Of a DNA stretch of 37,594 nt, positions 8,019 through 28,344 are shown one piece after another (the first letter of the stretch is position 1; each line of letters opens with the position of its first letter). Both the position numbers and the translations under genes were made by a program. Where the stretch lies: positions 1 to 37,594 of the forward strand of contig JACPAX010000060.1 of assembly GCA_016180585.1 (NCBI GenBank). The letters run 5' to 3'. Source of the stretch: Candidatus Omnitrophota bacterium. Lineage in GTDB: Bacteria; Omnitrophota; Gorgyraeia; 2-02-FULL-51-18. The notes under the pieces were generated by a model. That model had not been told where the DNA came from, searched no databases, and saw nothing but the letters and a program-made list of their open reading frames with translations.

Positions 8019-10328
8019 ATGGAAAAGGCCATGACCCGTGTGAGCATCCGGTTAAACGGCGAAGAAAAAACCTTCGACGGTCCGTTGTCGCTTGCCGCCC
8101 TCCTCGGGCGCCTGTCGCTCCCCAAAGAGAAAGTCGTCGTCGAGCTCAATCTCGAGATTGTCCCCAGGACGGATTTGGAGGCCCGCGCGCTCAAGGACGG
8201 CGACGAGGTGGAGATCGTCCACTTTGTGGGGGGCGGGTCCGAGCCTAAGGCGCGTGGCCCGGCCGGCGGGGGGGCGCTCGTGATCGTGGAGTCGCCGGCC
8301 AAATGCAAGACGATCCACAAGTATTTGGGGGCCGGCTACGAAGTCGCCGCGTCGATGGGGCACGTGGTGGATCTCCCGAAGAGCCGGATGGGGATCGATG
8401 TCGAGCACGGGTTTGAGCCGCAGTACATCGTCGTGAAGGAAAAGAAAAAGACGCTGGCCGATCTCAAGGCGAAGGCGAAGAATAAGCGCGAGATAATCCT
8501 TGCCTGCGATCCCGATCGCGAGGGAGAGGCGATTAGCTGGCATCTCAAGAACGCGCTTGGCGACGGCAAGAAGGTCTCGCGAGTGGTGTTCCATGAGATT
8601 ACCAAGGATGCGGTGCAAGAGGCCTTCAGGCATCCGACGGAGATCAACATGGACCTTGTGGGCGCCCAGCAGGCCCGTCGGGTGCTCGACCGAATCGTCG
8701 GATATTCCCTGAGCCCGCTTTTATGGCAAAAGGTCGGGCGCGGTCTCTCGGCGGGGCGCGTGCAATCCGTGGCGCTGCGCCTGGTTGTCGACCGGGAACG
8801 CCAGATCCTGGCGTTTTCGACCGAGGAGTACTGGACGATCGAAGCGGACCTAAAAAAGCAAAAGGGCCAGTCCAAGACTTTTGTCGCAAAGCTTGAGAAG
8901 GTCAAAGACCAGAAAGCCCGGATCCCGGACCGGGAGACCGCCGAGGGATATCTCGAGAAAATCAAGGGACGGCCGTTTGTCGTCCGCGACGTCAGGGAGC
9001 AGAGAAAGAAAAAAAATCCCTCCTCGCCGTTTACCACCAGCAAGCTCCAACAGGCGGCGTACAACCTCCTCCGGTTTCCCGCCTCGAAGACGATGCGGAC
9101 GGCGCAGACGCTCTATGAAGGGGTCGAGATCGGCGAAGAGGGCAGCATCGGTCTCATCACTTACATGCGCACGGATTCGGTGCGGATCTCGGACGGGGCG
9201 GTCGCCGAAATTCGGAAGCTGATCCTCGGGGATTTCGGCAAGGCGTACTTGCCGGCAACCCCCCCTGTGTATCGTTCCAAGAAACGGGCGCAGGAAGCGC
9301 ATGAGGCGATACGTCCGACCTCGGCGTTCCGCCGCCCCGAAGACATCGAAAAATATCTGACCCCCGATCAATTCAAGCTCTATCGCCTGATCTGGCGACA
9401 GGCCGTCTCAAGCCAGATGACCCCGGCCGTGATTCGCCAGGAGACTGTGGAAATAGCGGTCGGCCGAAGGTCCGCCGACGCTGCAGCGGCGGAAGATTAT
9501 TTGTTTAAGGCGACGGGAAGCCAGGTGGAATTTGCCGGTTGCCTGGTTCTCCAGGGCCGGTCCGAAGAGGAGGACAATCCGCTTCCCAAACTCAAGGCCG
9601 AAGAGACGCTGGATCTTGTGAAGATCGAGAAACACCAGCATTTCACCAAACCGCCGGCGCGGTATACCGATGCGTCCCTCATCAAGGCCCTTGAAGAAAA
9701 CGGGATCGGACGGCCATCGACGTACGCCCCGATTCTCATGACGCTGACCGGCCGCGATTACGTGCGGCGCGAGGGGGGGAGTCTGGCGCCCACGGAGCTG
9801 GGGATGCTCGTGACGGATCTTCTGGTCAAACATTTTGAGAAGATCATGGATTTTAAATTTACGGCGAACATGGAGGAAGCGCTCGACCGGGTTGAAGAAG
9901 GCGCGATCGAATGGGTCGCGGTGGTGAAGGAGTTTTACGGGATTTTTGACGGGCAGGTGGCGCTTGCCAGAACGGGGATGCAGGCGGTCAAAAAAGAAAA
10001 CGAGCCGACGGACGAGGTATGCGAGAAATGCGGCAAGCCCATGGTGATCAAGTGGGGCAGGCGCGGACGGTTCATGAGCTGTTCGGGGTGGCCCGAATGC
10101 AAAAACGCCAAATCCATTTCGACGGGGATCGCCTGTCCGCAATGCCGCGAGGGCAAGCTCGTCGCCCGCCGCGCGAAATCCGGCAAGGGGCGCCCTTTTT
10201 ACGGCTGCACGCGTTACCCGAACTGCAATTTTATCACCAACAAACTCCCCTCCGCCGCCCCATCGTCGGAGGACGGACCCGCCACGGAACCCTCCAGCGA
10301 CGCCTCCGAGACCGAGCCGACGGCTTGA
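8019..10328 (+). CDS. topA: ThiS-like ubiquitin-fold domain fused to DNA topoisomerase I
   Basis: A 769-residue frame with two parts. Residues 5-73 match the ThiS sulfur-carrier family over its full length (RLNGEEKTF, VVVELNLEIVPR, LKDGDEVEIVHFVGGG), including the terminal Gly-Gly. After a short linker (SEPKARGPAGGG), TopA begins at residue 87 with LVIVESPAK, then the TOPRIM acidic motif DPDREGEA, the catalytic Tyr382 in TYMRTDS, and two C-terminal four-cysteine zinc ribbons. TopA relaxes negative supercoils. No stop separates the two parts. An in-frame GTG at 8280 directly after a run of seven G could start a stand-alone TopA. A one-base loss in that run would end the ThiS part at TGA 8281-8283, overlapping the GTG. 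Start ATG 8019 or 8031. TopA is certain; fusion as expressed is less so. Confidence 0.88.
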   Translation: MEKAMTRVSIRLNGEEKTFDGPLSLAALLGRLSLPKEKVVVELNLEIVPRTDLEARALKDGDEVEIVHFVGGGSEPKARGPAGGGALVIVESPAKCKTIHKYLGAGYEVAASMGHVVDLPKSRMGIDVEHGFEPQYIVVKEKKKTLADLKAKAKNKREIILACDPDREGEAISWHLKNALGDGKKVSRVVFHEITKDAVQEAFRHPTEINMDLVGAQQARRVLDRIVGYSLSPLLWQKVGRGLSAGRVQSVALRLVVDRERQILAFSTEEYWTIEADLKKQKGQSKTFVAKLEKVKDQKARIPDRETAEGYLEKIKGRPFVVRDVREQRKKKNPSSPFTTSKLQQAAYNLLRFPASKTMRTAQTLYEGVEIGEEGSIGLITYMRTDSVRISDGAVAEIRKLILGDFGKAYLPATPPVYRSKKRAQEAHEAIRPTSAFRRPEDIEKYLTPDQFKLYRLIWRQAVSSQMTPAVIRQETVEIAVGRRSADAAAAEDYLFKATGSQVEFAGCLVLQGRSEEEDNPLPKLKAEETLDLVKIEKHQHFTKPPARYTDASLIKALEENGIGRPSTYAPILMTLTGRDYVRREGGSLAPTELGMLVTDLLVKHFEKIMDFKFTANMEEALDRVEEGAIEWVAVVKEFYGIFDGQVALARTGMQAVKKENEPTDEVCEKCGKPMVIKWGRRGRFMSCSGWPECKNAKSISTGIACPQCREGKLVARRAKSGKGRPFYGCTRYPNCNFITNKLPSAAPSSEDGPATEPSSDASETEPTA

Positions 10329-11236: not shown

Positions 11237-12417
11237 ATGAGATTTTTGTACGACATTTTGTTTTTTTTCTTTGCCGTCGTCTATCTGCCTCTCTTTTTTT
11301 TGAAGGGGAAGCATCACGGCGGTTTGCGGTCGCGGTTCGGGATCGTCCCGGCCCGGGCGCGGGCGGCGCTCAAGGGCAGGCGGGTGATCTGGATCCACGG
11401 GGTGTCCGTCGGAGAAGTCACTCAGGCCATCCGGCTGGCCGATGCGCTTAAAGGAAGGATCCCCGCCGCCAGGTTTCTTCTGACGACGACCACCGTCGCC
11501 GGTCGCCAGGTCGCCCAGGCGCTCAAGGGCGGGGAGGACGTCCTGCTTTATTTTCCGCTGGATTTCCGGCCGTGCGTCCGCTCTTTTGTCCGCGCCGCAA
11601 GGCGATCTCCGGTTATCGGAGGGTCGGTTTTTTCGCCAAAAGCGTTTTAAACCGGCTGGCCGGGATCGGGGCGCAGGATGAGCTGATGCGACGGAGGTTT
11701 TTGGGCCTGGGCGCCAGGCCGGACCGGGTGCGGGTCACCGGGAACATGAAATTCGACTGGAAACCTTCCGGAGGTCCTTCGGCGATTCTAAAAGGGATGG
11801 AGGTCCTTCTGAAAGGAGACGGCGGGATGCTCTGCATCGCGGGGAGCACCCATGAGGGGGAAGAGGAGATTTTTTTCAAGATGGTCCGTTCGCTGGGCGT
11901 CCGCCGGCCGGGTCTGCGCTTTTTGGTCGCCCCCCGGCATTTGCACCGGCTCCCGGACATCGAGCGGGCCGCGGCGAAAGAGAATTTGATCCCTTTAAGA
12001 ATTTCAAAGATAGGCAGCGAAGAAGAAAAAAGGTATGATAACCGGACGGGAGCCGTCGTTTATCTTCTGGACCAGATGGGAATCCTGGCTTCCGCCTACC
12101 GGCTGGCGGATCTGGCGTTTATCGGGGGGAGTCTCGTGCCTGCCGGCGGGCACAATCCCGTGGAGCCGGCGTTTTTTGAAAAGCCCGTTCTCTTCGGGCC
12201 TTTCATGAATAATTTCAGGGAAATGGCGGAGATCTTCAAGCAGGCCGGCGCCGCGCGGGAGGTCAGCGTTTCCACGCTTGAAACCGAAGTGGAGGCGCTC
12301 GCCGCGGACGCCGGAAAAAGAGAGGCGATGGGGGCGGCCGCCGGGCGCCTGGTGCGGTCGCACGAGGGATCCGTCGCAAAAAATATCGAGATGTTTTTGG
12401 AGGCCGTCCATCCATGA
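11237..12417 (+). pseudogene. waaA: Kdo transferase, interrupted by internal deletion and frameshift
   Basis: WaaA (KdtA, GT30) transfers Kdo to lipid IVA. The first frame runs from ATG 11237 to TAA 11650 with the N-terminal membrane helix, HGVSVGEV (holding the catalytic-base Glu) and YFPLDF. It then diverges. The homology resumes in another frame from about 11600 (ISGYRRVGFFAKS) through VTGNMKFD, STHEGEEE, PRHLHR and GGSLVPAGGHNPVEPA to TGA 12417. Between the two parts about 35 residues are absent, including the conserved ETE(L/I)WPN block; the missing DNA is about 100 nt and not a multiple of three. The downstream part might be translated from GTG 11572. This is either a true lesion or an assembly deletion. 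Loss would be surprising because lpxK and Kdo genes are intact. Confidence 0.85.
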
Positions 12418-13403
12418 GAAAGCTTATCCTGAGGTTTTTGGCGTGGGTCTACCGCCTGTGTCTTGTTTTTAGCCAGAGTTGGCACCGGGGAATGCCGTGC
12501 GGGATCAAAAAAGTGCCGGCCAGGGTGATCAGCGTCGGCAATATCACCTGGGGGGGAACCGGCAAGACGCCGCTGGTGACAAAGCTTGCCCGGGACTTAA
12601 GTTATTACGGGAAACGGGTGGTGGTGCTCGTCCGCGGCTACGGGAAAGACGAGGTGGAGGAGCTGCGCAAAAATCTGCCGCATATCCCGATTCTGGTGGG
12701 CCGGGACCGCGTCCGGACGGCGCGCCGCGCGGTGAAGCAGTTCAACGCCGAATACATCCTTCTCGACGACGGGTTTCAGCATATCCGGCTCCACCGCGAC
12801 CTGGACATCGTCAATATCAACGCCGCGGCGCCGTTCGGGCCGGGCGGTTTGACGCCGATGGGGACTCTGAGAGAGCCTCTCGAAAATCTGGCCCGCGCGG
12901 ACATCTTCATGCTGACCAAGAGCAATATCGGCTCGAAGAACCTGCACTGGATACGCCAAAAACTCCTTTCGATAAAACCCAATGCCGTGATCTTCGAGGC
13001 GGTGCACAAACCCCTTAAATTTACGGACGGCCTGAGGAACAGTTTTGTGCCGCTCTCCGGCGTGAAGGGCAAGCGGGTCGCGGTGCTTTCGGGAATCGGC
13101 GATCCCCATTCGTTTGAGAAGACCGTCGAAAATCTGGGCGCGGAGATTCTTTTTGCGGCGCGTTTCGATGATCACCATCCTTTCACGCCGTCGGAGATCG
13201 GGGAGTTTATCCGCCGCTGCGGCGAGCTCCAGCTGCGCGAAGTCATCACGACCGAGAAGGATTTTTACCGTCTGGAGCCGGCGTTGAAGAAGACGGGGGC
13301 GTCGGGCCGCGCGCCGCTCGATTTTTACATCTTACACATTGAATTTCAGGTGGGCGATGAAGAGGATTTCATTCGAAGATGCGTTAATTCTGCGCAGCGC
13401 TAA
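12414..13403 (+). CDS. lpxK: Tetraacyldisaccharide 4'-kinase
   Basis: A 329-residue membrane-anchored kinase adding the 4'-phosphate to the lipid A disaccharide to make lipid IVA, the acceptor for WaaA. An N-terminal hydrophobic segment (residues 4-19) is followed by VISVGNITWGGTGKTP, with the P-loop at 47-52, and DDGFQH, the family signature. Later motifs GIGDPHSFE and TTEKDFYRL are typical. The ATG overlaps the waaA stop (ATGA, 4 nt), suggesting coupled translation. Length is normal. The intact state of lpxK directly after a broken waaA is a reason to check the waaA sequence. Confidence 0.95.
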   Translation: MRKLILRFLAWVYRLCLVFSQSWHRGMPCGIKKVPARVISVGNITWGGTGKTPLVTKLARDLSYYGKRVVVLVRGYGKDEVEELRKNLPHIPILVGRDRVRTARRAVKQFNAEYILLDDGFQHIRLHRDLDIVNINAAAPFGPGGLTPMGTLREPLENLARADIFMLTKSNIGSKNLHWIRQKLLSIKPNAVIFEAVHKPLKFTDGLRNSFVPLSGVKGKRVAVLSGIGDPHSFEKTVENLGAEILFAARFDDHHPFTPSEIGEFIRRCGELQLREVITTEKDFYRLEPALKKTGASGRAPLDFYILHIEFQVGDEEDFIRRCVNSAQR

Positions 13404-15324
13404 AGTCGCGCGTCTGCTCGTCCGCTTTCTGCCTTTTCGGCTCTCGCTCTTTGTCGCCAAGGGCATCGGGGGGGCTCTTTATTTTTTCACGAAACGTCGC
13501 GGGATCGCGCACAAAAATCTCCGGGCGGCCTTCGCCGGTCAGAAGTCGGAAAGAGAAATAAAACAGATCGCCAGGCGCTCGATGGAGAACCTGGCGATGT
13601 GCGTGGTGGATCTCCTCAAACTTCCCGACCTGAATCGCCGGACGGCCGAAAGGCTTGTCGAGTTCCGGGGACTCGACCGGATACGCCCGAGTCTGGAGGA
13701 AGGCAAGGGGGTCATTTTTCTGACCGCGCATTTCGGCAGCTGGGAGTTTTTGAACGGCCTGGCCGGCCTCACCGGCTATCCGCTCGTCGGCCTGGCCCGC
13801 GCGCAGAAACATCCCCGCTCAAACCGTTTCCTGAATTCCCTGCGGAGCTGTCACGGAAACCAGGTGATCGAAAAAGGAATCCCGGTTCGGGAAATCCTCA
13901 AAGCCCTGCGCGCCGGTCGCGTCGTGGGGATCCTCGGGGACCAGGACGCCGGGAAGAACGGGGTCTTTGTGAATTTTTTCGGGCGCCAGTCCTCGTCCCC
14001 CAACGGGGTCGCGGCGTTCTCGGCCAAGACCGGCGCCGCGGTTTTTCCGGTGTTTATTTTCCGCACGGGCCTGACAAGCCACCGCGTCGAAGTGGAAGCG
14101 CCGATCCGCGTGCCGGAGGCGCTTGCCGGGGAAGCCGCCGGGGAGCGCGCGATGCTCCAGAGCTTCGCCGACACGCTCGAGGCCAAGATCCGCCGGTCTC
14201 CCGAGCAGTGGCTTTGGGCGCACCGCCGCTGGAAATCGACGCCGGACCGCTTTGTGCTCGTTTTAAGCGACGGGAAGACCGGCCACCTGAACCAATCGCT
14301 GGCGGTTTTCGAGGCCCTGAAAGAAGAGCGCGCCCGGCAGGGCTTTTCCCCGCAAAACCTTCATCTGGAGATTCTCGATGTGGGCTATCGGAGCCGGATC
14401 GGGAAGAACCTTCTTCAGGCGCTCGGCATTGTCTTCCGGGGAAAAATTCCTTTTGCCGGCGCCGTTCTCGGCGCGGCGCTTGAACGTGAAGGTTACCGCC
14501 GTCTTTCGGGGGCGTACGCGGACGTTGTGATTTCGAGCGGTTCTTCGCTTGGCGCCGCCCATCTGTGGGTCCGAAAAAAAAACCAGGCCAAGTCCGCGGT
14601 CGTGATGAAGCCGTCCGCCGGCGCGGGACTTTTCGACGTCGTGATTGCGCCGCGGCATGACCGGATGAAGCCTGCGGAAAACGTGTTTGTGACCGAACGG
14701 GCCCTGTCCCGGATCAGCCCCCAGACGCTGAAGACGGAATCCGAGAAACTCTTTAAGACCCTGGAGGCCCCGGCGGAACGCAGGCGCGTCGGGCTTCTGG
14801 TCGGCGGAGACGGCGGAAAGGTCAAGTTCGACAAATATTTGCTCCAAAAATCCCTGGAGGACATTCAGCGGGCCTGCCGCCAGACCTCCTCCGCGGTGCT
14901 GGCGGCCTCTTCGCGCCGCACGCCTTCCTGGGCCGACGCGATCCTGAAGGAGAAGTTTCAAAACAAGGCGGATTGCGAGGTGCTTGTGATCGCCAATGAG
15001 GCCAACCGCGAGGGAATTGTCCCGGGGATCCTGGGGCTGAGCGACCTGGTTGTCGTCACGGGTGAATCGATGTCGATGGTTTCGGAGGCCGTGTCCGCGG
15101 GGAAGCCCGTGGTCGTTTTTATGCCCGCCGTCAACGCCACGGGAAGGGCCAAGACCGGTGAATTCCTGGACCGGATGGTTCGTGAGCGTTGTGTGGTGAT
15201 GGCCGGCGCCGACGATCTGTACGAAGTGCTGCTGCGTGAAATCCGGTCCCCGAACGGTTTCTCCGGCGCCGCCGCGGATCGTGACGCCGGGACGCTCCGG
15301 CAGGCGGTCAGGAGGCTTTTATGA
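13357..15324 (+). CDS. Lipid A acyltransferase (LpxL family) fused to ELM1-like domain
   Basis: A 655-residue two-domain protein. Residues 1-296 are an LpxL/HtrB-type late acyltransferase with the HX4E catalytic motif at His125-Glu130 (HFGSWE), GDQD and QWLWAHRRWK. LpxL adds a secondary acyl chain to Kdo2-lipid IVA. From about residue 298 (LVLSDGKTGHLNQS) the sequence matches the ELM1 family (COG3660, related to GT-B folds), with SSRRTP and TGESMSMVSEA motifs. ELM1 function in bacteria is unknown; genes for it often neighbour lipid A genes. ATG 13357 is preferred over TTG 13339 because it has CAGG 6 nt upstream. It overlaps lpxK by 47 nt and the next gene by 4. Confidence 0.85.
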   Translation: MKRISFEDALILRSAKVARLLVRFLPFRLSLFVAKGIGGALYFFTKRRGIAHKNLRAAFAGQKSEREIKQIARRSMENLAMCVVDLLKLPDLNRRTAERLVEFRGLDRIRPSLEEGKGVIFLTAHFGSWEFLNGLAGLTGYPLVGLARAQKHPRSNRFLNSLRSCHGNQVIEKGIPVREILKALRAGRVVGILGDQDAGKNGVFVNFFGRQSSSPNGVAAFSAKTGAAVFPVFIFRTGLTSHRVEVEAPIRVPEALAGEAAGERAMLQSFADTLEAKIRRSPEQWLWAHRRWKSTPDRFVLVLSDGKTGHLNQSLAVFEALKEERARQGFSPQNLHLEILDVGYRSRIGKNLLQALGIVFRGKIPFAGAVLGAALEREGYRRLSGAYADVVISSGSSLGAAHLWVRKKNQAKSAVVMKPSAGAGLFDVVIAPRHDRMKPAENVFVTERALSRISPQTLKTESEKLFKTLEAPAERRRVGLLVGGDGGKVKFDKYLLQKSLEDIQRACRQTSSAVLAASSRRTPSWADAILKEKFQNKADCEVLVIANEANREGIVPGILGLSDLVVVTGESMSMVSEAVSAGKPVVVFMPAVNATGRAKTGEFLDRMVRERCVVMAGADDLYEVLLREIRSPNGFSGAAADRDAGTLRQAVRRLL

Positions 15325-17471
15325 ACATTTTGCAGGTGCTCCCGGAACTCAAATCGGGCGGTGTCGAGCGCGGGACGGTGGACCTTGCCAAGCACCTGAA
15401 GCAGCACGGCCACCAATCGGCGGTCATCTCCGCCGGCGGCCCGCTTGTCGGCGACCTCACCTCCGCGGGTGTGACGCACTACGTGCTCCCGGTCCATCGC
15501 AAGTCGCCGCTTTCGATTTTTTATTCGGTCCGGGAGATGTCGAAGATCGTGAAGCTCGAGAAGGTGGATCTCATTCATGCGCGCAGCCGCGTGCCGGCCC
15601 TGATTGCGTATTTGGTCAGCCGGCGCACCCGTGTCCCGTTCATGACCACCTGCCACGGTTTCTACAGCCGGAATCTTCTGGGGCGGGTCATGGGATGGGG
15701 GAAGCTGGTCGTGGCGGCAAGCCATATCATCGCCCAGCGGATGCGTGATGATTTTAATGTCCCTCACGAAAAGATTCGTTTGATTCACCGCGGGGTGAAT
15801 CTGAAAGAATTTCGTCTCCGGGAGGTCAAACCTGAGGACGAAAGACGTCGGACGACGGTGATCGGCCTCATCGGACGGATCACGCCGATCAAGGGGCACC
15901 CTCTTTTTTTGAAGGCGATGGCGCGCGTCACCCGCGTGTTTCCCAACGTGAAGATCCAGATCATCGGGGACGCGCCAAAGCCCCAATATAAGGAAGAGCT
16001 TCTGGCGCTGACTCGCGGCCTCGGTCTTTCCGGCATCGTCGAGTTTCTGGGCACGCGCTACGATATCCCCGAGCTTTTGTCCAGGATGGATATTCTGGTG
16101 GTGCCTTCGGTGGGCGAGGAGGCCTTTGGCCGCGTCGTGATCGAGGCGGGCGCCTGCGGGGTGCCCGTGGTCGGCACCCGGGTCGGAGGGATCGTCGACA
16201 TCATCGAGGACGGCCGGGACGGGCTTCTGGTCGGACCGGGCGACCCGCGGCAGCTGGCGGAGGCGGTGTTGCGTCTCCTGAAGGAACCGGAGCTTGCGCG
16301 GTCGCTGGCCGGCTCTTTGCGCCGCAGGGTCGAGCGGGAATTCAGCCTTGACCTGATGTTCGAAAAAACCCTTCGGGTCTACCAGGAGGCCGTCGCGAAG
16401 GTCAAGATACTCGTGATCAAGCTAAGCGCCGTCGGGGACGTGATCCTGATCATTCCTTCGCTTCGCGCGCTTCGCAAAAAATATCCCGAGGCGAAGATCT
16501 CCGTCCTCGTCGGGCGGAAATCGCGCAAGATCATACGGAATTGTCCGGCCATCGACGACGTGATCGTCTGGCAGGAGGGGGGGGCGGCCCGGTTTCTTTC
16601 GATGTTGAAGATGGCGCGGATCCTTGCCAAGGAAAGCTTTGACATCGTCGTGGATCTGCAAAACAACCGCGCCAGCCACTTTCTGTCTTATTTTTGCGGC
16701 GCCAGGATCAGGGCCGGGCACGACAACCACAAATGGTCCTTTTTTCTCAGCCATAAAACCGGAGGCGCGGCCGCCTCGCTTTCGCCGGTCGAGCATCAAT
16801 TTCAGGTCTTGAGGCTCATCGGGGCGGACCCTCTCGACAAGCGCCTGGAGCTTTGGACGGAAAAAGAAGAGGACGAAAAAATCGCCGGGCTTCTCGAATC
16901 CCACTGGGTGTCGCCGAGCCAGACGTTGGTGGGGATCAACCCCTCGTCTTCGCTGCGCTGGCCGACGAAGCAGTGGCCTCTCGAGAATTTCGCCAGGCTT
17001 GCGGATGAGCTGGCCAGGCACAACGTGCGCGTCGTCGTGACGGGATCGGCGGAAGACGCCGCTTATACGCAGCCGCTTTTTGGGATGACCCGGAACAAAC
17101 CGATCAACGCCGTCGGGAAGACCTCGATCACCGAGCTTGTGTCGCTCATCAAGCGTTGCCAGGTGTTTGTGAGCTCCGATTCGGCGCCGATGCATATTGC
17201 CTCGAGCGTCGAAGTCCCGCTCGTGGCGATCTTCGGCCCGACGGACCCCAGGCGGCACCTCGTGCCCCCGCCGAAGGCGCAGGTGTTTTGGAAGGAGGTC
17301 CAGTGCAGCCCCTGTTATCTGCGCAGCTGCCCGATCGGCCATCTCTGCATGAAAAAAATCACGGTTCAGGAGGTCTTGGATTCCGTGCTTTATTTCCTGA
17401 GCCTGTCCAGAGGCGCCTCCGGCGAAGGCGTATCGGACGGAAAGATGCGCCATGCGCTCGCCGGCCCTTAA
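15321..17471 (+). CDS. GT4 glycosyltransferase fused to GT9 heptosyltransferase
   Basis: A 716-residue protein with two glycosyltransferases in one chain. Residues 1-355 form a GT4 (group 1) enzyme: ILQVLPELKSGGVERG at the start, HRGVNLKEF, LIGRITPIKG, and the donor-site E-x7-E stretch in EEAFGRVVIEAGACG. Residues from about 360 (KVKILVIKLSAVGDV) form a GT9 ADP-heptose transferase, with GINPSSSLRWPTKQWP, SSDSAPMHIA and FGPTDP. A cysteine quartet (CX2CX4CX5C) lies near the C-terminus. It probably builds the LPS core in two successive transfers, but donor and acceptor sugars cannot be read. The ATG overlaps the preceding stop by 4 nt. Confidence 0.88.
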   Translation: MNILQVLPELKSGGVERGTVDLAKHLKQHGHQSAVISAGGPLVGDLTSAGVTHYVLPVHRKSPLSIFYSVREMSKIVKLEKVDLIHARSRVPALIAYLVSRRTRVPFMTTCHGFYSRNLLGRVMGWGKLVVAASHIIAQRMRDDFNVPHEKIRLIHRGVNLKEFRLREVKPEDERRRTTVIGLIGRITPIKGHPLFLKAMARVTRVFPNVKIQIIGDAPKPQYKEELLALTRGLGLSGIVEFLGTRYDIPELLSRMDILVVPSVGEEAFGRVVIEAGACGVPVVGTRVGGIVDIIEDGRDGLLVGPGDPRQLAEAVLRLLKEPELARSLAGSLRRRVEREFSLDLMFEKTLRVYQEAVAKVKILVIKLSAVGDVILIIPSLRALRKKYPEAKISVLVGRKSRKIIRNCPAIDDVIVWQEGGAARFLSMLKMARILAKESFDIVVDLQNNRASHFLSYFCGARIRAGHDNHKWSFFLSHKTGGAAASLSPVEHQFQVLRLIGADPLDKRLELWTEKEEDEKIAGLLESHWVSPSQTLVGINPSSSLRWPTKQWPLENFARLADELARHNVRVVVTGSAEDAAYTQPLFGMTRNKPINAVGKTSITELVSLIKRCQVFVSSDSAPMHIASSVEVPLVAIFGPTDPRRHLVPPPKAQVFWKEVQCSPCYLRSCPIGHLCMKKITVQEVLDSVLYFLSLSRGASGEGVSDGKMRHALAGP

Positions 17472-18216
17472 AACCGCCGCCGTTCTCGGCGTGGCGGCGC
17501 TTCTTTACGCCTGGGTCGCCTCGGCCCGCGAAACGCCGGTGCTCATGTATCATCGCATCTCCTCCTCGGAGTCGCCGTCGAGCCTGCATGTCCTGCCGGA
17601 GGACTTTGAAAAACAGATGGAATTTTTGAAAGTCCACCGTTACCGCGTCGTGCCGCTGGCGGAGCTGGCCGGACGGATTCTCGAAAAAAAACCCGTTCCC
17701 CCGAAGACGGTGGCCATCACGTTTGACGACGGATCGCTGGATAATTTTCAGAACGCGTTCCCCGTGCTCAAAAACATGGGTTTCCCGGCCACGATATTCA
17801 TGATCACCGAAAATATCGGCAAAGAGGGCTGGCTTTCGGAGGAAGACCTGAGGATCCTCGACGAATCGGGGATCGCCATCGGGAGCCACACGGTCACGCA
17901 CGCGTTTCTTCCCGAGCTCGGGACGGAGAAGGTCGCCGAAGAGCTGGCCCGATCCAAAAAGGACCTGGAGAAGGTCCTCGGCCATCCGGTGACCCTGCTG
18001 AGCTACCCCGGCGGCGGAGTCACCCGGTCCGTGATCGAGGAGGCCGGAAAAGCCGGTTATCAGGCGGCGGTAACCACCAATTATGGCAGGGAGAAAGACA
18101 ATGCCTATGCGATGCGGCGCGTCAAGGTCAGCGGAAAAAACGGCAATCTCTTTCGTTTCTGGCCTAAGGTGAGCGGGTATTCACAGCTGGGGAAGAAAAG
18201 AATTGAAATTAAATAG
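17452..18216 (+). CDS. Polysaccharide deacetylase (NodB/CE4 domain)
   Basis: A 254-residue CE4-family protein. An N-terminal hydrophobic helix (residues 7-24) indicates a signal anchor or signal peptide, so it probably acts in the periplasm. The metal and catalytic motifs are intact: PVLMYHRI at 29-36, TFDDG at 90-94 and SHTVTH at 145-150, with LSYPGGG as motif 3. CE4 enzymes remove N-acetyl groups from sugars. The substrate is not evident; its place within an LPS-core cluster suggests a surface glycan or LPS sugar. It overlaps the upstream gene by 20 nt and is followed by a repeat array. Confidence 0.88.
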   Translation: MRSPALKTAAVLGVAALLYAWVASARETPVLMYHRISSSESPSSLHVLPEDFEKQMEFLKVHRYRVVPLAELAGRILEKKPVPPKTVAITFDDGSLDNFQNAFPVLKNMGFPATIFMITENIGKEGWLSEEDLRILDESGIAIGSHTVTHAFLPELGTEKVAEELARSKKDLEKVLGHPVTLLSYPGGGVTRSVIEEAGKAGYQAAVTTNYGREKDNAYAMRRVKVSGKNGNLFRFWPKVSGYSQLGKKRIEIK

Positions 18217-19602: not shown

Positions 19603-21627
19603 GTGATGAGGCCTGAGGACAGGGACGGCGTTCAAAAAATTCTTGTCGTGACGCTTTCCAATCTCGGAGACGTGGTCCTGACGCTGCCCGTCTTTCAGTC
19701 GCTGAGACGGGCCTTTCCCGGCGCGCGCCTGCACGTTGTCGTCGGTCCGGCCGGCGCGGAGGTTTTCACCCAAGATCCGCGGATTGACCGCGTGGTCGTT
19801 TATGATAAAAAAGGCGGATGGTCCGGGAAGCTCGGCCTTCTCCGCCGGATCCGGGCCGAACGGTATGACCTCGTCGTGGATTTGCGGAAGTCGCTTTTTG
19901 GGCTCCTTGCCGGCGCGCGATTCAGGAATCCCGTCTTTTTCTTCTCGCGCTCGAAGAAACACCGCGCGCTCCGCCACTGGAAATCGTTAAAGCCCATTTT
20001 GAACGAGCCCTCCATTCCGGAGGAATCTTTTCTGAGGACGGATTTCGGGGTTTCTCCGTTGATCGCGGAGGCGCTCTCGTCTTCCGACCGCCGGCTTGTG
20101 GTGGCCTGCGTAGGGTCGAAAAGCGATCTTAAGAAATGGCCGGCCGCCTCTTACGCGAGGCTCCTGGACCGGCTCGCCTCCGAATCGGACTGCCGTATTT
20201 TTCTGGCCGGCGGGGCCGAGGACAAAAAAGATTCGCAGGCGGTGGCGGAACTGATGAAACAGCCGGTGACGGATCTGACCGGGGGGACCACGTTTGTCGG
20301 TCTTTGCCAACTCTTGCGCGCCGCGGATCTCGTGGTGACCAACGACAGCGCCCCGCTCCACGTAGCGGATTCCCTGAGGGTCCCCGCGTTGGCCGTCTTC
20401 GGCCCGACGGATCCGGTGAAGTACGGGCCGAGATTTCACGGGAGCGCGGTGGCCCGCCGTGTTCTTTTTTGCGCGCCGTGTGAGCGCGCGCAGTGCCGTT
20501 TTCATCACGAATGCATGAAGGAGCTTGGCGCGGACGAGGTCTACCGGCAGGCGGTCCGCGTGCTCGAAGGGGAGGGCCGCCCGCACCGGCCGCGGATTCT
20601 GGCGGTCCGTTTGGACCGCATCGGGGATGTGCTGCTTTCTTTGCCGGCGCTCGCGATCCTGCGCCGCCGTTTTCCGGATGCCTGGATCTCCGTGATGGTC
20701 CGTCCGTCCACACGGGAAATTCTCGAGGGGCATCCGCTGATTGACGAGGTGATCCCCTACGACTACTCCCCGGAGGGGCGGGACCGTTTTCCGCTGGGGT
20801 ATCTGCGTTTCTTAAGAGGGATTGCCAAGAGACGTTTTGACATCGCCTGTGTTCTGCGCCCCGGCGTGCGTTCGCATCTGGCCCCTTTTCTGGCGGGCAT
20901 CCCGCGCCGGGTCGGATTCCGACGCTGCGGCTGGCGGTTTTTTTTGACCCAGACGGTGTCCGACAGGCGTCACGAGGGACTCCGGCACGAATCCGAATAC
21001 ACCGCCGACGTGGTGCGGCAGTTTGGGGGCGAGGAAGGGCCCGCCGATCTTCCGCCTTATCCGGTATTTTCCGAGAGCGACCAGAGCATTTCCGGCCTGC
21101 TTTCGGAGGAGAGGCCCGGGCAGGGCCATGAGCGACTCATCGCTTTTCATGCCGGCGCGAGCTGTCCGTCCAAGCGCTGGCCCAAAGAAAGCTTCGCCTG
21201 GCTCGGCAAGGCGGTCCTTGCCGGATTGCCCCATCGCCTCGTTCTCATCGGCGGGGGTCGGGAGCGCGAGACTTCGGAGTTTCTGAAAGCGGAATGGGGC
21301 GCGCGCGCGCTGGACCTGACGGGACGGCTGAACTTAAGGGAATCCGCGGCCCTTCTCAAGCGCTGCGAGGTTCTCGTCTCGAACGATTCAGGCCCCGTGC
21401 ATTTGGCCGCGGCGGTCGGCACGCGGACGCTTACGATTTTCGGAAGAAATCAGGACGGCCTGAGCCGGCGCCGGTGGAGGGCGTTGGGGGCGGGGCACGA
21501 GACGATTCAAAAAGACGTCGGTTGCGTCGTATGTCTGGCGCATCGCTGCAGCATCGGCTTCGAGTGCCTGAAGGCGATTTCCGTGGAGGAAGTATTTGAG
21601 CGCCTTAAACAAATGGTGGGAAAATGA
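19603..21627 (+). CDS. Tandem GT9-GT9 heptosyltransferase fusion
   Basis: A 674-residue protein holding two complete GT9 domains. Domain 1 (about residues 10-325) starts ILVVTLSNLGDVVLTLPV and has CVGSKSDLKKWP, TNDSAPLHVA and FGPTDP. Domain 2 (from about residue 330) starts ILAVRLDRIGDVLLSLPAL and has HAGASCPSKRWP, SNDSGPVHLAA and FGRN. Each ends with the same cysteine quartet CX2CX4CX5C. The two domains are clearly diverged, so they may add different residues, or one may be non-catalytic. The start is GTG 19603 or ATG 19606; AGGAG at 19587-19591 fits the GTG better. It follows the inverted-end element and overlaps the next gene by 4 nt. Confidence 0.9.
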   Translation: MMRPEDRDGVQKILVVTLSNLGDVVLTLPVFQSLRRAFPGARLHVVVGPAGAEVFTQDPRIDRVVVYDKKGGWSGKLGLLRRIRAERYDLVVDLRKSLFGLLAGARFRNPVFFFSRSKKHRALRHWKSLKPILNEPSIPEESFLRTDFGVSPLIAEALSSSDRRLVVACVGSKSDLKKWPAASYARLLDRLASESDCRIFLAGGAEDKKDSQAVAELMKQPVTDLTGGTTFVGLCQLLRAADLVVTNDSAPLHVADSLRVPALAVFGPTDPVKYGPRFHGSAVARRVLFCAPCERAQCRFHHECMKELGADEVYRQAVRVLEGEGRPHRPRILAVRLDRIGDVLLSLPALAILRRRFPDAWISVMVRPSTREILEGHPLIDEVIPYDYSPEGRDRFPLGYLRFLRGIAKRRFDIACVLRPGVRSHLAPFLAGIPRRVGFRRCGWRFFLTQTVSDRRHEGLRHESEYTADVVRQFGGEEGPADLPPYPVFSESDQSISGLLSEERPGQGHERLIAFHAGASCPSKRWPKESFAWLGKAVLAGLPHRLVLIGGGRERETSEFLKAEWGARALDLTGRLNLRESAALLKRCEVLVSNDSGPVHLAAAVGTRTLTIFGRNQDGLSRRRWRALGAGHETIQKDVGCVVCLAHRCSIGFECLKAISVEEVFERLKQMVGK

Positions 21628-22485: not shown

Positions 22486-23480
22486 ATGAAGTCTTTTAAT
22501 TTCTCTCGTCTCAAAAGCGTCATTTCCAATTTTCACAAGGCAAAAGTTCTCGTGGTCGGCGACCTGATTCTGGATGAGTTCATCTGGGGGAAGGTCTCGC
22601 GCATTTCGCCCGAGGCCCCGGTGCCCGTCGTATGGGTCGATTCGGAAAATTTCATGCCCGGAGGCGCCTCCAACGTCGCCAACAATATCCGCGCCCTCGG
22701 CGGCGAAGTCTATCTGGCCGGGGTAGTCGGGGAAGACGACCGCGGGGGCGTGCTCTGCTCGCTCCTTAAGGAAAAAGGAATACACTGCGAGGGGATATTC
22801 AGGGACGTCTCGCGCCCGACGACCCAAAAAACCCGCGTGATCGCCCATCACCAGCAGGTCGTGAGGATCGACCGCGAGAGAGCGGCGCCGCTTTCGGCCG
22901 AGAACCTTGAGCCGATTATCGGATTCATCCGCCAGAGGCTGCCGGCGGTGGACGCGCTGATCCTCGAGGATTACGGCAAGGGGGTCATCGTGCCGGCGCT
23001 GGTGAAAGAGGCGGTCCGCCTCGCCAAAAAACACAAAAAAATAATCACGGTCGATCCGAAAGAAGACCATTTTTCCTATTATCAGGGGGTCACGACGATC
23101 ACCCCGAACCATCACGAGGCCGCTTCCGCCGCGGGCGTCGCGGTCAAAGACGACGCGTCGCTTCTCAGGGCGGGCAAAAAACTGCTCGGCAAGCTCCGCT
23201 GCGAGTCGGTGCTCATCACGCTCGGCGAGAACGGGATGAGCCTCTTCGTGAAAGGGAGGCCGATGTTCAAGATCCCGACGGTGGCGCAGGAGGTGTTCGA
23301 TGTTTCCGGCGCCGGCGACACCGTGATCGGCGCCTACACGCTCGCGCGCGCGGTGAAGGCCTCGGCCACCGAGGCGGCGTATATCTCCAATTGCGCGGCG
23401 GGTATCGTCGTCGGCAAGGTGGGTGTGGCCGTCACGTCGTGCGGAGAGCTTTTGGACAGAATCGGGCAGGAGATGAGCAA

Positions 23481-23484
<4 letters not shown>
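22486..23484 (+). CDS. rfaE1: D-glycero-beta-D-manno-heptose-7-phosphate kinase (HldA/RfaE1)
   Basis: A 332-residue PfkB/ribokinase-family enzyme that phosphorylates heptose-7-phosphate at C1, en route to ADP-heptose. The family start VLVVGDLILDEFIWGKVSRISPEAPVPVV and GGASNVANN are diagnostic of RfaE domain I. The catalytic region is DVSGAGDTVIG near the C-terminus. The second (nucleotidyltransferase) domain of bifunctional HldE is absent, so an HldC or RfaE2 is expected elsewhere. ATG 22486 lies behind a strong promoter; the frame extends upstream but that part overlaps DUF3108. Its stop overlaps the kdsB start codons. Confidence 0.93.
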
Positions 23485-25830
<2,346 letters not shown>

Positions 25831-25859
25831 GCCGTGGGTAACGGGCCCGGCGGGGGTGG

Positions 25860-26690
25860 GTGGTGAGCAAGGTGGTTCGAGTAGGCGATGTCCTTCTCGG
25901 CGAGGGAAGGCCGCTGGCGTTGATCGCGGGGCCCTGCGTGATCGAGAATGAAAAAAGCGCTTTGCGGCACGCCAAGGCCATCCAAAAAATTTCCCGCCGT
26001 CTCGGGGTCCCGCTGGTTTACAAATCCAGCTATGACAAGGCCAACCGCAGCTCTCTGGGTTCCTTCCGCGGGATCGGGATCGGGCAGGGTCTGGACGCGC
26101 TCCGGCGCGTGAAGGAAGAGACGGGGCTTCCCGTCCTGACGGATGTTCACAGCGCCTCCGAGGCCGAGGGCGCCGCCGAGTTTGCGGATGTGTTGCAGAT
26201 CCCCGCGTTTCTTTGCCGGCAGACGGATCTTCTTTTGGCCGCCGCCCGCACCGGGAGGGCCGTGAACGTGAAAAAAGGGCAGTTTCTCTCGCCGTGGGAG
26301 ATGCGGAACGTCGTCGAGAAGCTCGTCTCCACGGGAAACAAGAGAGTGCTCCTGACCGAACGGGGGACTTTTTTCGGTTACCACGCGCTGGTCAACGACT
26401 TTCGCTCCATTCCGGTCATGAAAGAATTCGGGTGCCCGGTGATTTTCGACGCCACGCATTCGGTCCAAGCACCGGGAGGGAAGGGGAAGAGTTCCGGCGG
26501 AGACCGCCGTTTCGTGCCGACGCTCGCCAGGGCCGGCGTTGCGGCGGGCTGCGACGGCGTTTTCATGGAGGTCCATGAGGACCCGGACCGGGCGCCGAGC
26601 GACGGTCCCAACATGGTGGTTCTGAAGGATCTGGAAAAACTTCTTGAGAGTCTTTTGCGCGTCAGCCGGGCGGTGCGCCATGCCGGTTGA
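25860..26690 (+). CDS. kdsA: Kdo-8-phosphate synthase
   Basis: A 276-residue aldolase condensing arabinose-5-phosphate and phosphoenolpyruvate. Diagnostic segments are [26 protein letters not shown] (substrate loop), VLTDVHS, and [12 protein letters not shown]. The Cys in AGPC is also the metal ligand of metal-dependent KdsA enzymes, so this may be a metal-dependent type. Only GTG codons (25860, 25863) are available as starts, preceded by a G-rich stretch. It is 29 nt after pyrG and overlaps kdsD by 11 nt. The four steps kdsD, kdsA, kdsC and kdsB are all present here. Confidence 0.95.
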
Positions 26691-27648
26691 CGGGGTCAAA
26701 GTCGCCAAAAGGGTTATCGGGATAGAACGGGAGGCGCTGGCTCTTCTGAGGTCGAGAATAGACCACAATTTTGAAAAGGCCTGCGCGCTCATCATGGAAT
26801 GCCGCGGCCGCACGGTGCTTACGGGGCTTGGCAAGCCCGGGTTTATCGCCCAGAAGATCTCGGCGACCCTTTCGTCGACCGGGACCCCCTCGCTCTTCTT
26901 GCATCCGGCCGAGGCGCTTCACGGCGACCTGGGGCGCGTGATGAAAGAGGACGTCGTGGTCGGGCTCTCCAACAGCGGTCGGACCGAGGAAATCGTAAAG
27001 CTTTTGCCGGTCGTGAGGAAAATAGGCGCCAAACTCATCTCGATTACGGGGAACCCCAAATCGCCGCTGGCGACGCACAGCGACGTGGTCCTCGATGTGC
27101 GTGTCAAAAAGGAGGCCTGTCCGTTGAACCTGGCGCCCACGGCCTCGACGACCGCGATGCTGGCGATGGGGGACGCGCTGGCCGTGGCGCTGCTTGAGAA
27201 AAAAGGGTTCAAGGCCGAGGACTTCGCGTTTTACCATCCCGGCGGCGACCTCGGCAAGAAACTGCTTCTCAGGGTCTCCGACATCATGCGGACGGGCAGA
27301 GACAACCCCGTGGTCTCAGGGGACATGAAGGTGGAGGAGGTGCTGTACCGGATCACGGGCGCCCGGGCGGGCTCGGCGACCATCGTGGATAAAAAAGGCC
27401 GCTTGGCCGGGATCTTCACCGACGGGGATTTGAGGCGGCACTTAAAAGGCGGCGGCGATCTTTTGCAGACCCCCGTGCGCGACGTGATGACCAAAAACCC
27501 AGTCACGATCACCGCCGGCAAGCTCGCCGCCGAGGTCCTCGAGCTTTTACGCAGCAAGCGAATCGACGAAGTGCCGGTCGTGGACCCGAGGGGGCGTCCC
27601 GTGGGTTATCTGGACGTCCAGGACATTTTGAAAGCGGGGATTGTTTAG
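26680..27648 (+). CDS. kdsD: Arabinose-5-phosphate isomerase (KpsF/GutQ type)
   Basis: A 322-residue isomerase making arabinose-5-phosphate from ribulose-5-phosphate, the entry to Kdo synthesis. The N-terminal SIS sugar-isomerase domain has [21 protein letters not shown] (residues about 48-68), HGDLG and LSNSGRTEE. Two CBS domains follow (from about residue 205, VSDIMRTG, and from about 270, [10 protein letters not shown]), usual for KdsD. The ATG at 26680 overlaps kdsA. The gene ends at TAG 27648, whose last base begins the inverted-end element. Length matches E. coli KdsD (328 aa). Confidence 0.94.
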
Positions 27649-27810
27649 CAGTCCGATGAAAAAGCCCAATCTCCGCCACAAAGCGCCGGCGGACCCGTCC
27701 GCAAAGCTCTGTGGACGGACCCGACGAGCTTTGTGGCGGGCGCGCTCGATCCCTCGCGCCTCGCATCTTGGGCTTTTTGATCAGACCGCTGGCATGAGGT
27801 TTTTCAACGA
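27648..27810. repeat. Inverted-end element, copy 2 (kdsD-kdsC gap)
   Basis: The left end 27648-27669 and right end 27768-27789 are reverse complements at 19 of 22 positions. They match copy 1 at 19429-19579 (GATGAAAAAGCC at left, GGCTTTTTGATCAGAC at right). The partial third end, GGCATGAGGTTTTTCAAC (27791-27808), is also shared. The interior differs: here CCGCCACAAAGC pairs with GCTTTGTGGCGG, making a long hairpin, while the other copy has different GC-rich arms. The element fills the 174-nt gap and starts at the last base of the kdsD stop. It carries no coding sequence. A terminator role is possible. Confidence 0.8.
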
Positions 27811-27822
27811 CCCACGACTGAT

Positions 27823-28344
27823 ATGACGGACGACCTCAGGGAGCGGATTCTTAAAATCAAGCTTGTCGTGTTTGACGTCGACGGGGTTTTGACCGACGGG
27901 CGGATTGTGCTGGGCAATTACGGCGATGAGCTCAAATTTTTCGACGTGCAGGACGGGCTCGGGATCGTGCGGTTGAGGAGAGCGGGACTCAAGACCGCGC
28001 TCGTGACCTCGCGCAAGTCGCGCATCAACCATCGGCGGGCGCGGGAGATGGACGTCACGAAGCTTTACCAGAACGTGAGCGACAAGCGCAAGGTGTTTGA
28101 CAAGATCCTTCGGAAATTCAGGCTCGACGCCGCCGAGGCGTGTTTTGTCGGCGACGACCTCATGGATATCCCTGCGCTCGCCCGGGCGGGGCTCGCCGTC
28201 GCCGTCCAAAACGCCGTCCCGGCCGTCAAGGAGATCGCCCATTACGTGACGGAAAAATCCGGGGGCCGCGGGGCCGCGCGGGAGATCTCCGACCTGTTGC
28301 TCAACACGCAGGGGCGCTCCGACGCCCCGGTTCCTAAGGACTGA
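27823..28344 (+). CDS. kdsC: Kdo-8-phosphate phosphatase
   Basis: A 173-residue HAD-superfamily phosphatase (C0 subtype without a cap) releasing Kdo from Kdo-8-phosphate. Motif I is VVFDVDGVLTDGRI near residue 10; motif II lies in LVTSRKS; the last motif is FVGDDLMDIPAL. KdsC forms a tetramer, and its short length agrees. The ATG at 27823 follows the inverted-end element by 12 nt. It is the last Kdo-synthesis step before KdsB and sits next to LPS transport genes, as in many diderms. No abnormality. Confidence 0.94.
   Translation: MTDDLRERILKIKLVVFDVDGVLTDGRIVLGNYGDELKFFDVQDGLGIVRLRRAGLKTALVTSRKSRINHRRAREMDVTKLYQNVSDKRKVFDKILRKFRLDAAEACFVGDDLMDIPALARAGLAVAVQNAVPAVKEIAHYVTEKSGGRGAAREISDLLLNTQGRSDAPVPKD

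Follow-up and report, generated by a model that had tools for sequence, protein, structure and literature searches.

Why is a lipid A acyltransferase joined, in a single polypeptide, to a domain of the ELM1 family, whose bacterial members have long been a puzzle under the name 'mitochondrial fission protein'? The question is raised by one gene on contig JACPAX010000060.1 of a metagenome-assembled genome (MAG) of a Candidatus Omnitrophota bacterium (GCA_016180585.1), of which the whole stretch of 37,594 nucleotides was analysed and is called the window here. The gene encodes an LpxL/HtrB-type late acyltransferase domain followed by an ELM1 domain. A sequence-only reading of the locus had treated the ELM1 activity as unknown, which no longer holds for the family: the ELM1 member KdoT of Acinetobacter baumannii was assayed in a report of December 2025 (PMC12856342), and in NCBI records the family already goes by the name 'ELM1/GtrOC1 family putative glycosyltransferase'. 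We propose that the fusion is probably a bifunctional inner-membrane enzyme, which would attach a late acyl chain as well as a sugar, 3-deoxy-D-manno-oct-2-ulosonic acid (Kdo) or some other residue of the inner core, to Kdo-lipid IVA.

The gene is a single open frame on the forward strand, coding for 655 residues from an ATG at 13357 to a stop codon at 15322-15324; a TTG at 13339 is an in-frame codon upstream of this ATG. It overlaps both neighbours: the ATG lies before the end of lpxK (13403), and the stop codon runs into the next gene, which begins at 15321 and encodes a fusion of glycosyltransferase (GT) family 4 and family 9 domains. When the whole protein was searched against Pfam, residues 20-293 matched PF03279 (E 1.8e-52, 178.8 bits against a cut-off of 22.3) and residues 309-614 matched PF06258 (E 1.4e-48, 166.1 bits against a cut-off of 27), confirming the earlier view that an LpxL-type acyltransferase and ELM1 share one protein. 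No other family was matched at E 1e-3. All 17 NCBIfam models that were matched stayed below their curated cut-offs, the best being PRK08419 with 159.9 bits against 248; we therefore use the label 'LpxL-type', which specifies no acyl position. An AlphaFold 2 (AF2) model of the whole fusion had a mean predicted local distance difference test score (pLDDT) of 94.3 and a predicted template modelling score of 0.91, the latter suggesting a confident prediction of how the two domains sit relative to each other.

A frame of this kind could also be produced by a chimeric assembly or a lost stop codon, and the waaA gene directly upstream is indeed frame-broken in the same MAG. The probability of such an artefact is negligible, and read-through at the junction was rejected, because the same frame and a constant junction are found across relatives. 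Of 285 genomes sampled from the phylum Omnitrophota, a profile search detected PF06258 in 265, and the ELM1 locus was read in 194 of these, drawn from the stronger PF06258 matches listed, with the weaker ones among the 265 under-sampled. LpxL and ELM1 shared one frame in 185 of the 194 genomes, representing 47 family groups. The other nine comprised four with ELM1 fused to LpxK, two in which a contig end left just a fragment, and three in which the ELM1 gene fetched was an extra stand-alone copy (G139, G292 and G298, each with a second ELM1 match left unread). No internal stop was seen in the frames among the relatives' matches listed. A second ELM1 frame was present in five of the 185 genomes, as a true extra copy in G001, G008 and G113 and as the result of a frame break in G015 and G131, where the break sits within the ELM1 part and not at the junction. 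The median identity of the 185 aligned fusions to the window protein was 31%.

The 80 listed of 554 confirmed matches among named records, which overlap the genome census, gave a similar picture: 73 were LpxL-ELM1, four LpxK-ELM1 and three ELM1 alone. These 80 comprised 78 Omnitrophota records, one 'uncultured bacterium' and one 'Deltaproteobacteria'; of the three with ELM1 alone, two begin at a contig end and the third is the MAG labelled Deltaproteobacteria. In the phylum of that MAG, ELM1 was found in four of 191 genomes, three times stand-alone and once cut by the end of the stretch. No match was found on viral contigs. Four plasmid records with an ELM1 match were opened and read. A Pseudomonas plasmid encodes an ELM1 protein of 780 residues (L267:3573-5915) in which the first 440 have no Pfam match. 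The sequence-only reading had considered the two domains normally separate and had named separate genes in relatives as the observation that would speak against the fusion. The search for the same fusion in relatives gave the opposite result: in Omnitrophota the fusion is the usual state. No description of an LpxL-ELM1 or LpxL-KdoT fusion was found in the open-licence PMC literature, judged by titles and the starts of abstracts among the matches listed; the family was already known as a putative glycosyltransferase by its NCBI name.

The junction between the halves is constant in length. Exactly 11 residues lie between K293, the last conserved lysine of the LpxL half, and D305, the first conserved aspartate of the ELM1 half, in all 185 aligned fusions. 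In an indel scan covering residues 60-594, residues 266-321 formed the longest indel-free stretch (56 residues; the next longest were 37 and 33) in all 175 full-length proteins, once the ten that are cut short at an end had been dropped; before these were dropped, the junction was the sole stretch without an indel in all 185. A variable linker is absent, and the acyltransferase leads directly into the strand with which the ELM1 Rossmann fold opens.

HX4D/E is the catalytic pair motif of late acyltransferases, and its residues H125 and E130 were present in 180 of the 180 fusions that reach this part. On the ELM1 side, D305 was kept in 185/185, H310 in 183/185, D435 in 184/184, R520 in 182/184 and R521 in 182/183. 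These counts come from an alignment census, which was used in place of a regular-expression census that proved too strict (HX4E in 152/185, DxxxGH in 153/185). Two other alignments included 75 of 99 ELM1 stretches and 71 of 81 fusions, respectively. With these residues retained, both halves look catalytically intact.

Modelled alone, the ELM1 domain reached a pLDDT of 95.2 (AF2). Its fold matched those of UDP-GlcNAc 2-epimerase (7vz6; Z 21.1, root mean square deviation 4.6 over 305 residues), the galactolipid synthase MGD1 (4wyi; Z 20.1, 4.6 over 296) and MurG (1nlm; Z 17.7, 5.7 over 298). Foldseek gave template modelling scores of about 0.5 against GT-B enzymes, and the matches span nearly the whole domain. 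On this model we assign the ELM1 half to the GT-B fold with confidence, and the structure prediction thereby upholds the suggestion, made from the sequence alone, of a possible GT-B glycosyltransferase. WaaA was absent among the 50 fold matches listed, a listing that excludes nothing. A role as a UDP-GlcNAc 2-epimerase was considered for its best fold score and rejected, as no such Pfam family was matched and the assayed relative KdoT is a transferase. A search of PDB sequences with an ELM1 profile returned four matches with E values of 0.26 or worse, which were taken as chance.

KdoT is, to our knowledge, the only ELM1 relative with an in vitro assay. According to the published report (PMC12856342), KdoT moves Kdo from CMP-Kdo onto Kdo2-lipid IVA, which it favours over hexa-acylated Kdo2-lipid A; lipid IVA without any Kdo did not serve it as an acceptor, and it is termed there a strict KdoIII transferase. 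It is membrane-associated without a predicted transmembrane helix, and in the published model its N-terminal half binds the lipid acceptor (PMC12856342). In the mutants described, replacement of D8, H13, H109, D110 or R179 by alanine was tolerated singly, while R180, which lies near the Kdo carboxylate in the model, was important (PMC12856342).

We recovered the kdoT gene from an Acinetobacter record, where it encodes 296 residues, follows a branched-chain aminotransferase gene as published, and holds D8, H13, H109, D110, S178, R179, R180 and T181 at the published numbers. These residues align with D305, H310, H434, D435, S519, R520, R521 and T522 of the window protein, respectively. Contrary to the statement in the report that H13 is not conserved outside Acinetobacter (PMC12856342), the equivalent H310 is kept in nearly all Omnitrophota fusions, as counted above. 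The window ELM1 domain and KdoT shared 25% identity by BLASTP (E 8e-18 in a three-sequence comparison) and were matched by hhalign at 99.8% (E 2.5e-30), with the homology starting at about residue 299, ahead of the Pfam boundary. On these comparisons the window domain is a homologue of KdoT, with orthology not supported by the tree.

The mechanism that we propose from these data begins with the LpxL half, which would move an acyl chain from acyl carrier protein to Kdo-lipid IVA via its HX4E site. The ELM1 half would act as an inverting GT-B glycosyltransferase of the KdoT type with an activated donor, most likely CMP-Kdo, and would add the sugar to the Kdo that WaaA has already attached to that lipid. 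The product of the next gene, a GT4-GT9 enzyme, could then extend the core. Kdo2-lipid IVA is the substrate of LpxL, and the E. coli enzyme needs it. KdoT acts on this lipid too (PMC12856342), and the fusion could let acylation and sugar transfer act on one molecule. The direct, linker-free joint would place both active sites over one membrane patch, probably serving the same Kdo-lipid IVA molecule. Transferred to the fusion, the published KdoT model (PMC12856342) would have the acyltransferase attached directly to that half of the glycosyltransferase which binds the acceptor. What we observe is that the two domains are fused, that the fusion is conserved, that the model predicts a GT-B fold, that the residues tested in KdoT are present and that the gene lies among lipid A, Kdo and core genes; from these we infer Kdo as the donor, Kdo2-lipid IVA as the acceptor and the joint handling of one molecule. 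A stronger version, in which a single rigid enzyme with two heads both puts the acyl chain on Kdo2-lipid IVA and attaches one more Kdo to that molecule, so that acylation and the start of the core become one coordinated step, is a possibility to which we give a little less than an even chance.

Kdo is the likeliest donor, and a probable one. An ELM1 half that acts as a GT-B glycosyltransferase on Kdo-lipid A with another donor, for example a uronic acid, a hexose or a heptose, is unlikely, although the low identity to KdoT, the heptose kinase and GT9 genes in the same cluster and the UDP-sugar enzymes among the top fold matches would all fit it. It has to be set against R521, the near-invariant equivalent of the KdoT arginine placed close to the Kdo carboxylate in the published model (PMC12856342), and against the CMP-Kdo genes in the same cluster, even though WaaA needs CMP-Kdo too. 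This alternative and those discussed below are not mutually exclusive, and the probabilities that we attach to them do not sum to one.

Another possibility is that WaaA adds one Kdo and the ELM1 half the second, the fusion thus completing the Kdo2 unit before acylating it. The requirement of E. coli LpxL for Kdo2-lipid IVA would agree with this, as would the fact that absences of ELM1, WaaA and LpxK coincide, a pattern confounded by linkage. Among the 285 genomes, 256 had both ELM1 and WaaA, nine had neither, 11 had WaaA without ELM1 and nine ELM1 without WaaA (Fisher 1.9e-7). As the two genes are neighbours, the genomes are related and one contig end can remove several genes, little weight was given to this co-absence, and the phylogenetic profile was dropped as an independent proof that ELM1 needs WaaA. 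The waaA/lpxK contigs were inspected in six of the 11 genomes with WaaA and no ELM1 (G218, G102, G132, G231, G267 and G030), and in all six the operon reaches the contig end before ELM1; G190 was covered through its LpxL contig, and G282, G284, G104 and G125 were left out. In G166, which has the fusion and seemingly lacks WaaA and LpxK, the upstream DNA is replaced by N. Completion of the Kdo2 unit by the fusion is less probable still than a different donor, since KdoT is described as a strict KdoIII transferase, inactive on lipid IVA without Kdo (PMC12856342).

One genome stood out in this comparison. G148, in two contigs, had no ELM1, WaaA or LpxK match and kept two LpxL-family proteins; this looks like a real joint loss, and perhaps a lineage without Kdo-lipid A.

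The history of the fusion was followed in trees, all of them quick searches with Shimodaira-Hasegawa-like approximate likelihood-ratio values as their sole support measure. The LpxL halves of 20 sampled fusions formed one clade apart from 24 stand-alone Omnitrophota proteins of the LpxL type (support 97), and the fused clade had a support of 94 in a separate 55-row tree; in another LpxL tree the 'fused' label needed four changes, which probably reflects fragments of fused genes at contig ends that carried a separate label. A single clade fits one old fusion for the LpxL half. In the ELM1 tree the LpxL-fused domains were not one clade (four changes): interspersed with them, in part on poorly supported branches, were copies standing alone, copies fused to LpxK and copies from other phyla.

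Four loci of another phylum (L262-L265) have a non-fused ELM1 gene followed by a gene that starts much like the GT4 gene of the window (Pfam-checked in L262), with a GT9-like gene before ELM1 in the three loci that reach that far (two read by eye from the sequence). Their ELM1 domains nest among the Omnitrophota ones in the tree, and gene transfer is possible.

The four genomes with LpxK-ELM1 belong to two family groups (three to f25, one to f54), and all 12 of their LpxL-type proteins fall outside the fused LpxL clade; these genomes have probably lost the LpxL module and retained ELM1. Three loci of this lineage (L064, L065 and L079) have a gene for a CBS-domain-like protein and a membrane protein between waaA and lpxK-ELM1, and the membrane protein resembles cation antiporters when read by eye from the sequence. 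In at least two genomes (L067 and L072), WaaA and LpxK themselves share one open frame of 829 and 803 residues.

Because LpxK can replace LpxL, simple anchoring has to be taken seriously as a competing explanation: the fusion could be a membrane foothold on LpxL or LpxK for a soluble glycosyltransferase, or an expression convenience, with the two activities unlinked. The membrane association of KdoT without a predicted transmembrane helix (PMC12856342), the LpxK fusion in 4/194 genomes and a long linker in a fusion from Methylophaga (see below) could be explained in this way, whereas the fixed length of the junction in 185/185, the identity of both partners, LpxL and LpxK, as members of the lipid A pathway, and an apparently independent LpxL-ELM1 pairing in Methylophaga would not be expected from it. 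We consider it unlikely, though the least unlikely of the alternatives. The partners seen vary and yet remain within the lipid A/Kdo pathway.

The independent case is a plasmid protein of Methylophaga pinxianii (WP_226069883.1), an LpxL-ELM1 fusion of 674 residues. Its LpxL half groups with Halomonas (100), in a tree that held only three other proteobacterial LpxL rows, and its ELM1 half groups with KdoT (100), with 37% identity over 263 columns. The linker is about 73 residues long. Downstream of the gene come two genes of GT4 type and one GT9 gene, and an O-antigen ligase gene is nearby. From these groupings it looks like a fusion of independent origin with a nearer relative of KdoT.

The genes around the fusion are collected in the table below.

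Features of the fusion gene and its surroundings (window coordinates; residue numbers refer to the fusion protein)
Feature	Position	Strand	Basis
LpxL-ELM1 fusion gene, 655 aa	13357..15324	+	open frame, two Pfam domains, AF2 model
LpxL/HtrB-type late acyltransferase domain, aa 20-293; HX4E = H125 + E130	13414..14235	+	PF03279
Junction, aa 266-321	14152..14319	+	indel-free stretch; K293-D305 spacing
Putative ELM1/KdoT-like GT-B glycosyltransferase domain, aa 309-614 by Pfam	14281..15198	+	PF06258, AF2, KdoT alignment
SRRT motif, aa 519-522; R521 = KdoT R180 equivalent	14911..14922	+	KdoT alignment
waaA (Kdo transferase), two frames, ~35 codons missing at ~11599	11237..12417	+	comparison with relatives
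lpxK, tetraacyldisaccharide 4'-kinase	12414..13403	+	PF02606 and TIGR00682 over cut-off
GT4-GT9 fusion, directly downstream	15321..17471	+	Pfam
Polysaccharide deacetylase (PF01522)	17452..18216	+	Pfam
CMP-Kdo supply region	23391..28344	+	TIGR00466, TIGR01362, TIGR00393, TIGR01670 over cut-offs; pyrG by Pfam
kdsB	23391-24224	+	
pyrG (CTP synthase)	24217-25830	+	Pfam
kdsA	25860-26690	+	
kdsD-type isomerase	26644-27648	+	
kdsC	27823-28344	+	

LptC/LptA-like and LptB genes also lie downstream on the same strand. The usual order in Omnitrophota is topA, xerC, waaA, lpxK, the lpxL-ELM1 fusion, the GT4-GT9 fusion and further GT4/GT9 genes, often with a polysaccharide deacetylase gene. In 36 Omnitrophota fusion loci with long flanks (four stand-alone ELM1 loci being excluded), the GT4-GT9 gene came next in all 36, lpxK was within the stretch in 34 and waaA in 29; some of the seven loci without waaA are cut by a contig end or N. 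In A. baumannii, a glycosyltransferase gene and a polysaccharide deacetylase gene follow kdoT in its operon (Acinetobacter record; PMC10936431). The sequence-only reading had proposed a lipid A or core intermediate as the substrate of ELM1. This proposal is supported by the lipid A, Kdo and core neighbours of the fusion, together with the activity described for KdoT (PMC12856342) and the presence of its tested residues.

For the waaA split near 11599, an assembly error and a real lesion are not distinguishable; there was no second PF04413 match in this genome, which is 81% complete. At 8019-10328 of the window, a ThiS-like domain (residues 10-73) is fused to DNA topoisomerase I, as also in L066, L078 and L082-L087, and the fusion is absent in other relatives. 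At 19603-21627, two heptosyltransferase-type (GT9) domains are found in one protein, which seemingly correspond to separate genes in a number of relatives.

Several points weigh against a bifunctional enzyme that couples acylation to Kdo transfer. Coupling to LpxL is not obligatory, given the four LpxK-ELM1 genomes and the position of their 12 LpxL-type proteins. In the ELM1 tree, KdoT and the Methylophaga domain pair up (100) and are joined next by alpha- and gammaproteobacterial types (95), and the Omnitrophota fusion domains lie elsewhere. An identity of 25% to KdoT is too low to settle the sugar donor, and donor specificity shifts readily among GT-B families. The core of A. baumannii is without heptose; the window has heptosyltransferase-type GT9 genes and a heptose kinase gene, and its inner core would thus differ. 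In one genome consisting of a single contig (G080), waaA is more than 500 kb away from the fusion. As most of the tested KdoT residues were singly dispensable in the mutants described (PMC12856342), their conservation alone is no proof of Kdo transfer. Finally, the operon is rich in fusions (GT4-GT9, GT9-GT9 and ThiS-TopA), which weakens the inference from any single one, and therefore the case rests on the sum of conserved residues, a fixed junction, independent recurrence and an assayed relative.

If the bifunctional enzyme is real, Kdo transfer of the KdoT type would be an old, phylum-wide step of lipopolysaccharide synthesis instead of a peculiarity of Acinetobacter and Rickettsia, and the fusion of LpxL to a KdoT-type domain would have evolved at least twice. 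The phylum-wide LpxL-ELM1 fusion, the gammaproteobacterial one and LpxK-ELM1 together provide strong genomic support for a role of the family on Kdo-lipid A beyond Acinetobacter. The lipopolysaccharide of Omnitrophota seems uncharacterised, and no title on Omnitrophota lipid A or lipopolysaccharide was found in the open-licence PMC literature (titles only). The fusion offers a single polypeptide for the direct study of coupling between acylation and inner-core glycosylation.

Among known systems, KdoT (A1S_2903, GtrOC1) shares with the window domain the family PF06258, a GT-B fold by the published model and the aligned D8/H13/H109/D110 and SRRT residues (PMC12856342), as well as an operon that also encodes a glycosyltransferase and a polysaccharide deacetylase; it differs as a stand-alone protein of 296 residues with 25% identity, whereas the window domain is fused to LpxL near waaA and lpxK. 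Like LpxL/HtrB, the Kdo2-lipid IVA acyltransferase, the N-terminal domain is over the Pfam cut-off and has HX4E, but the protein is below the NCBIfam cut-offs, carries a C-terminal glycosyltransferase and belongs to a clade of its own in Omnitrophota.

WaaA (KdtA), of family GT30, transfers Kdo in the same pathway and is likewise a GT-B enzyme. It is encoded by a separate gene upstream of the fusion, and its domain PF04413 was not matched in the fusion at E 1e-3. The Methylophaga protein WP_226069883.1 has the same two domains in the same order with GT4-type and GT9 genes downstream, and differs in its gammaproteobacterial-type LpxL, in an ELM1 half 34-37% identical to KdoT and in its linker of about 73 residues, where the Omnitrophota fusions have a direct joint.

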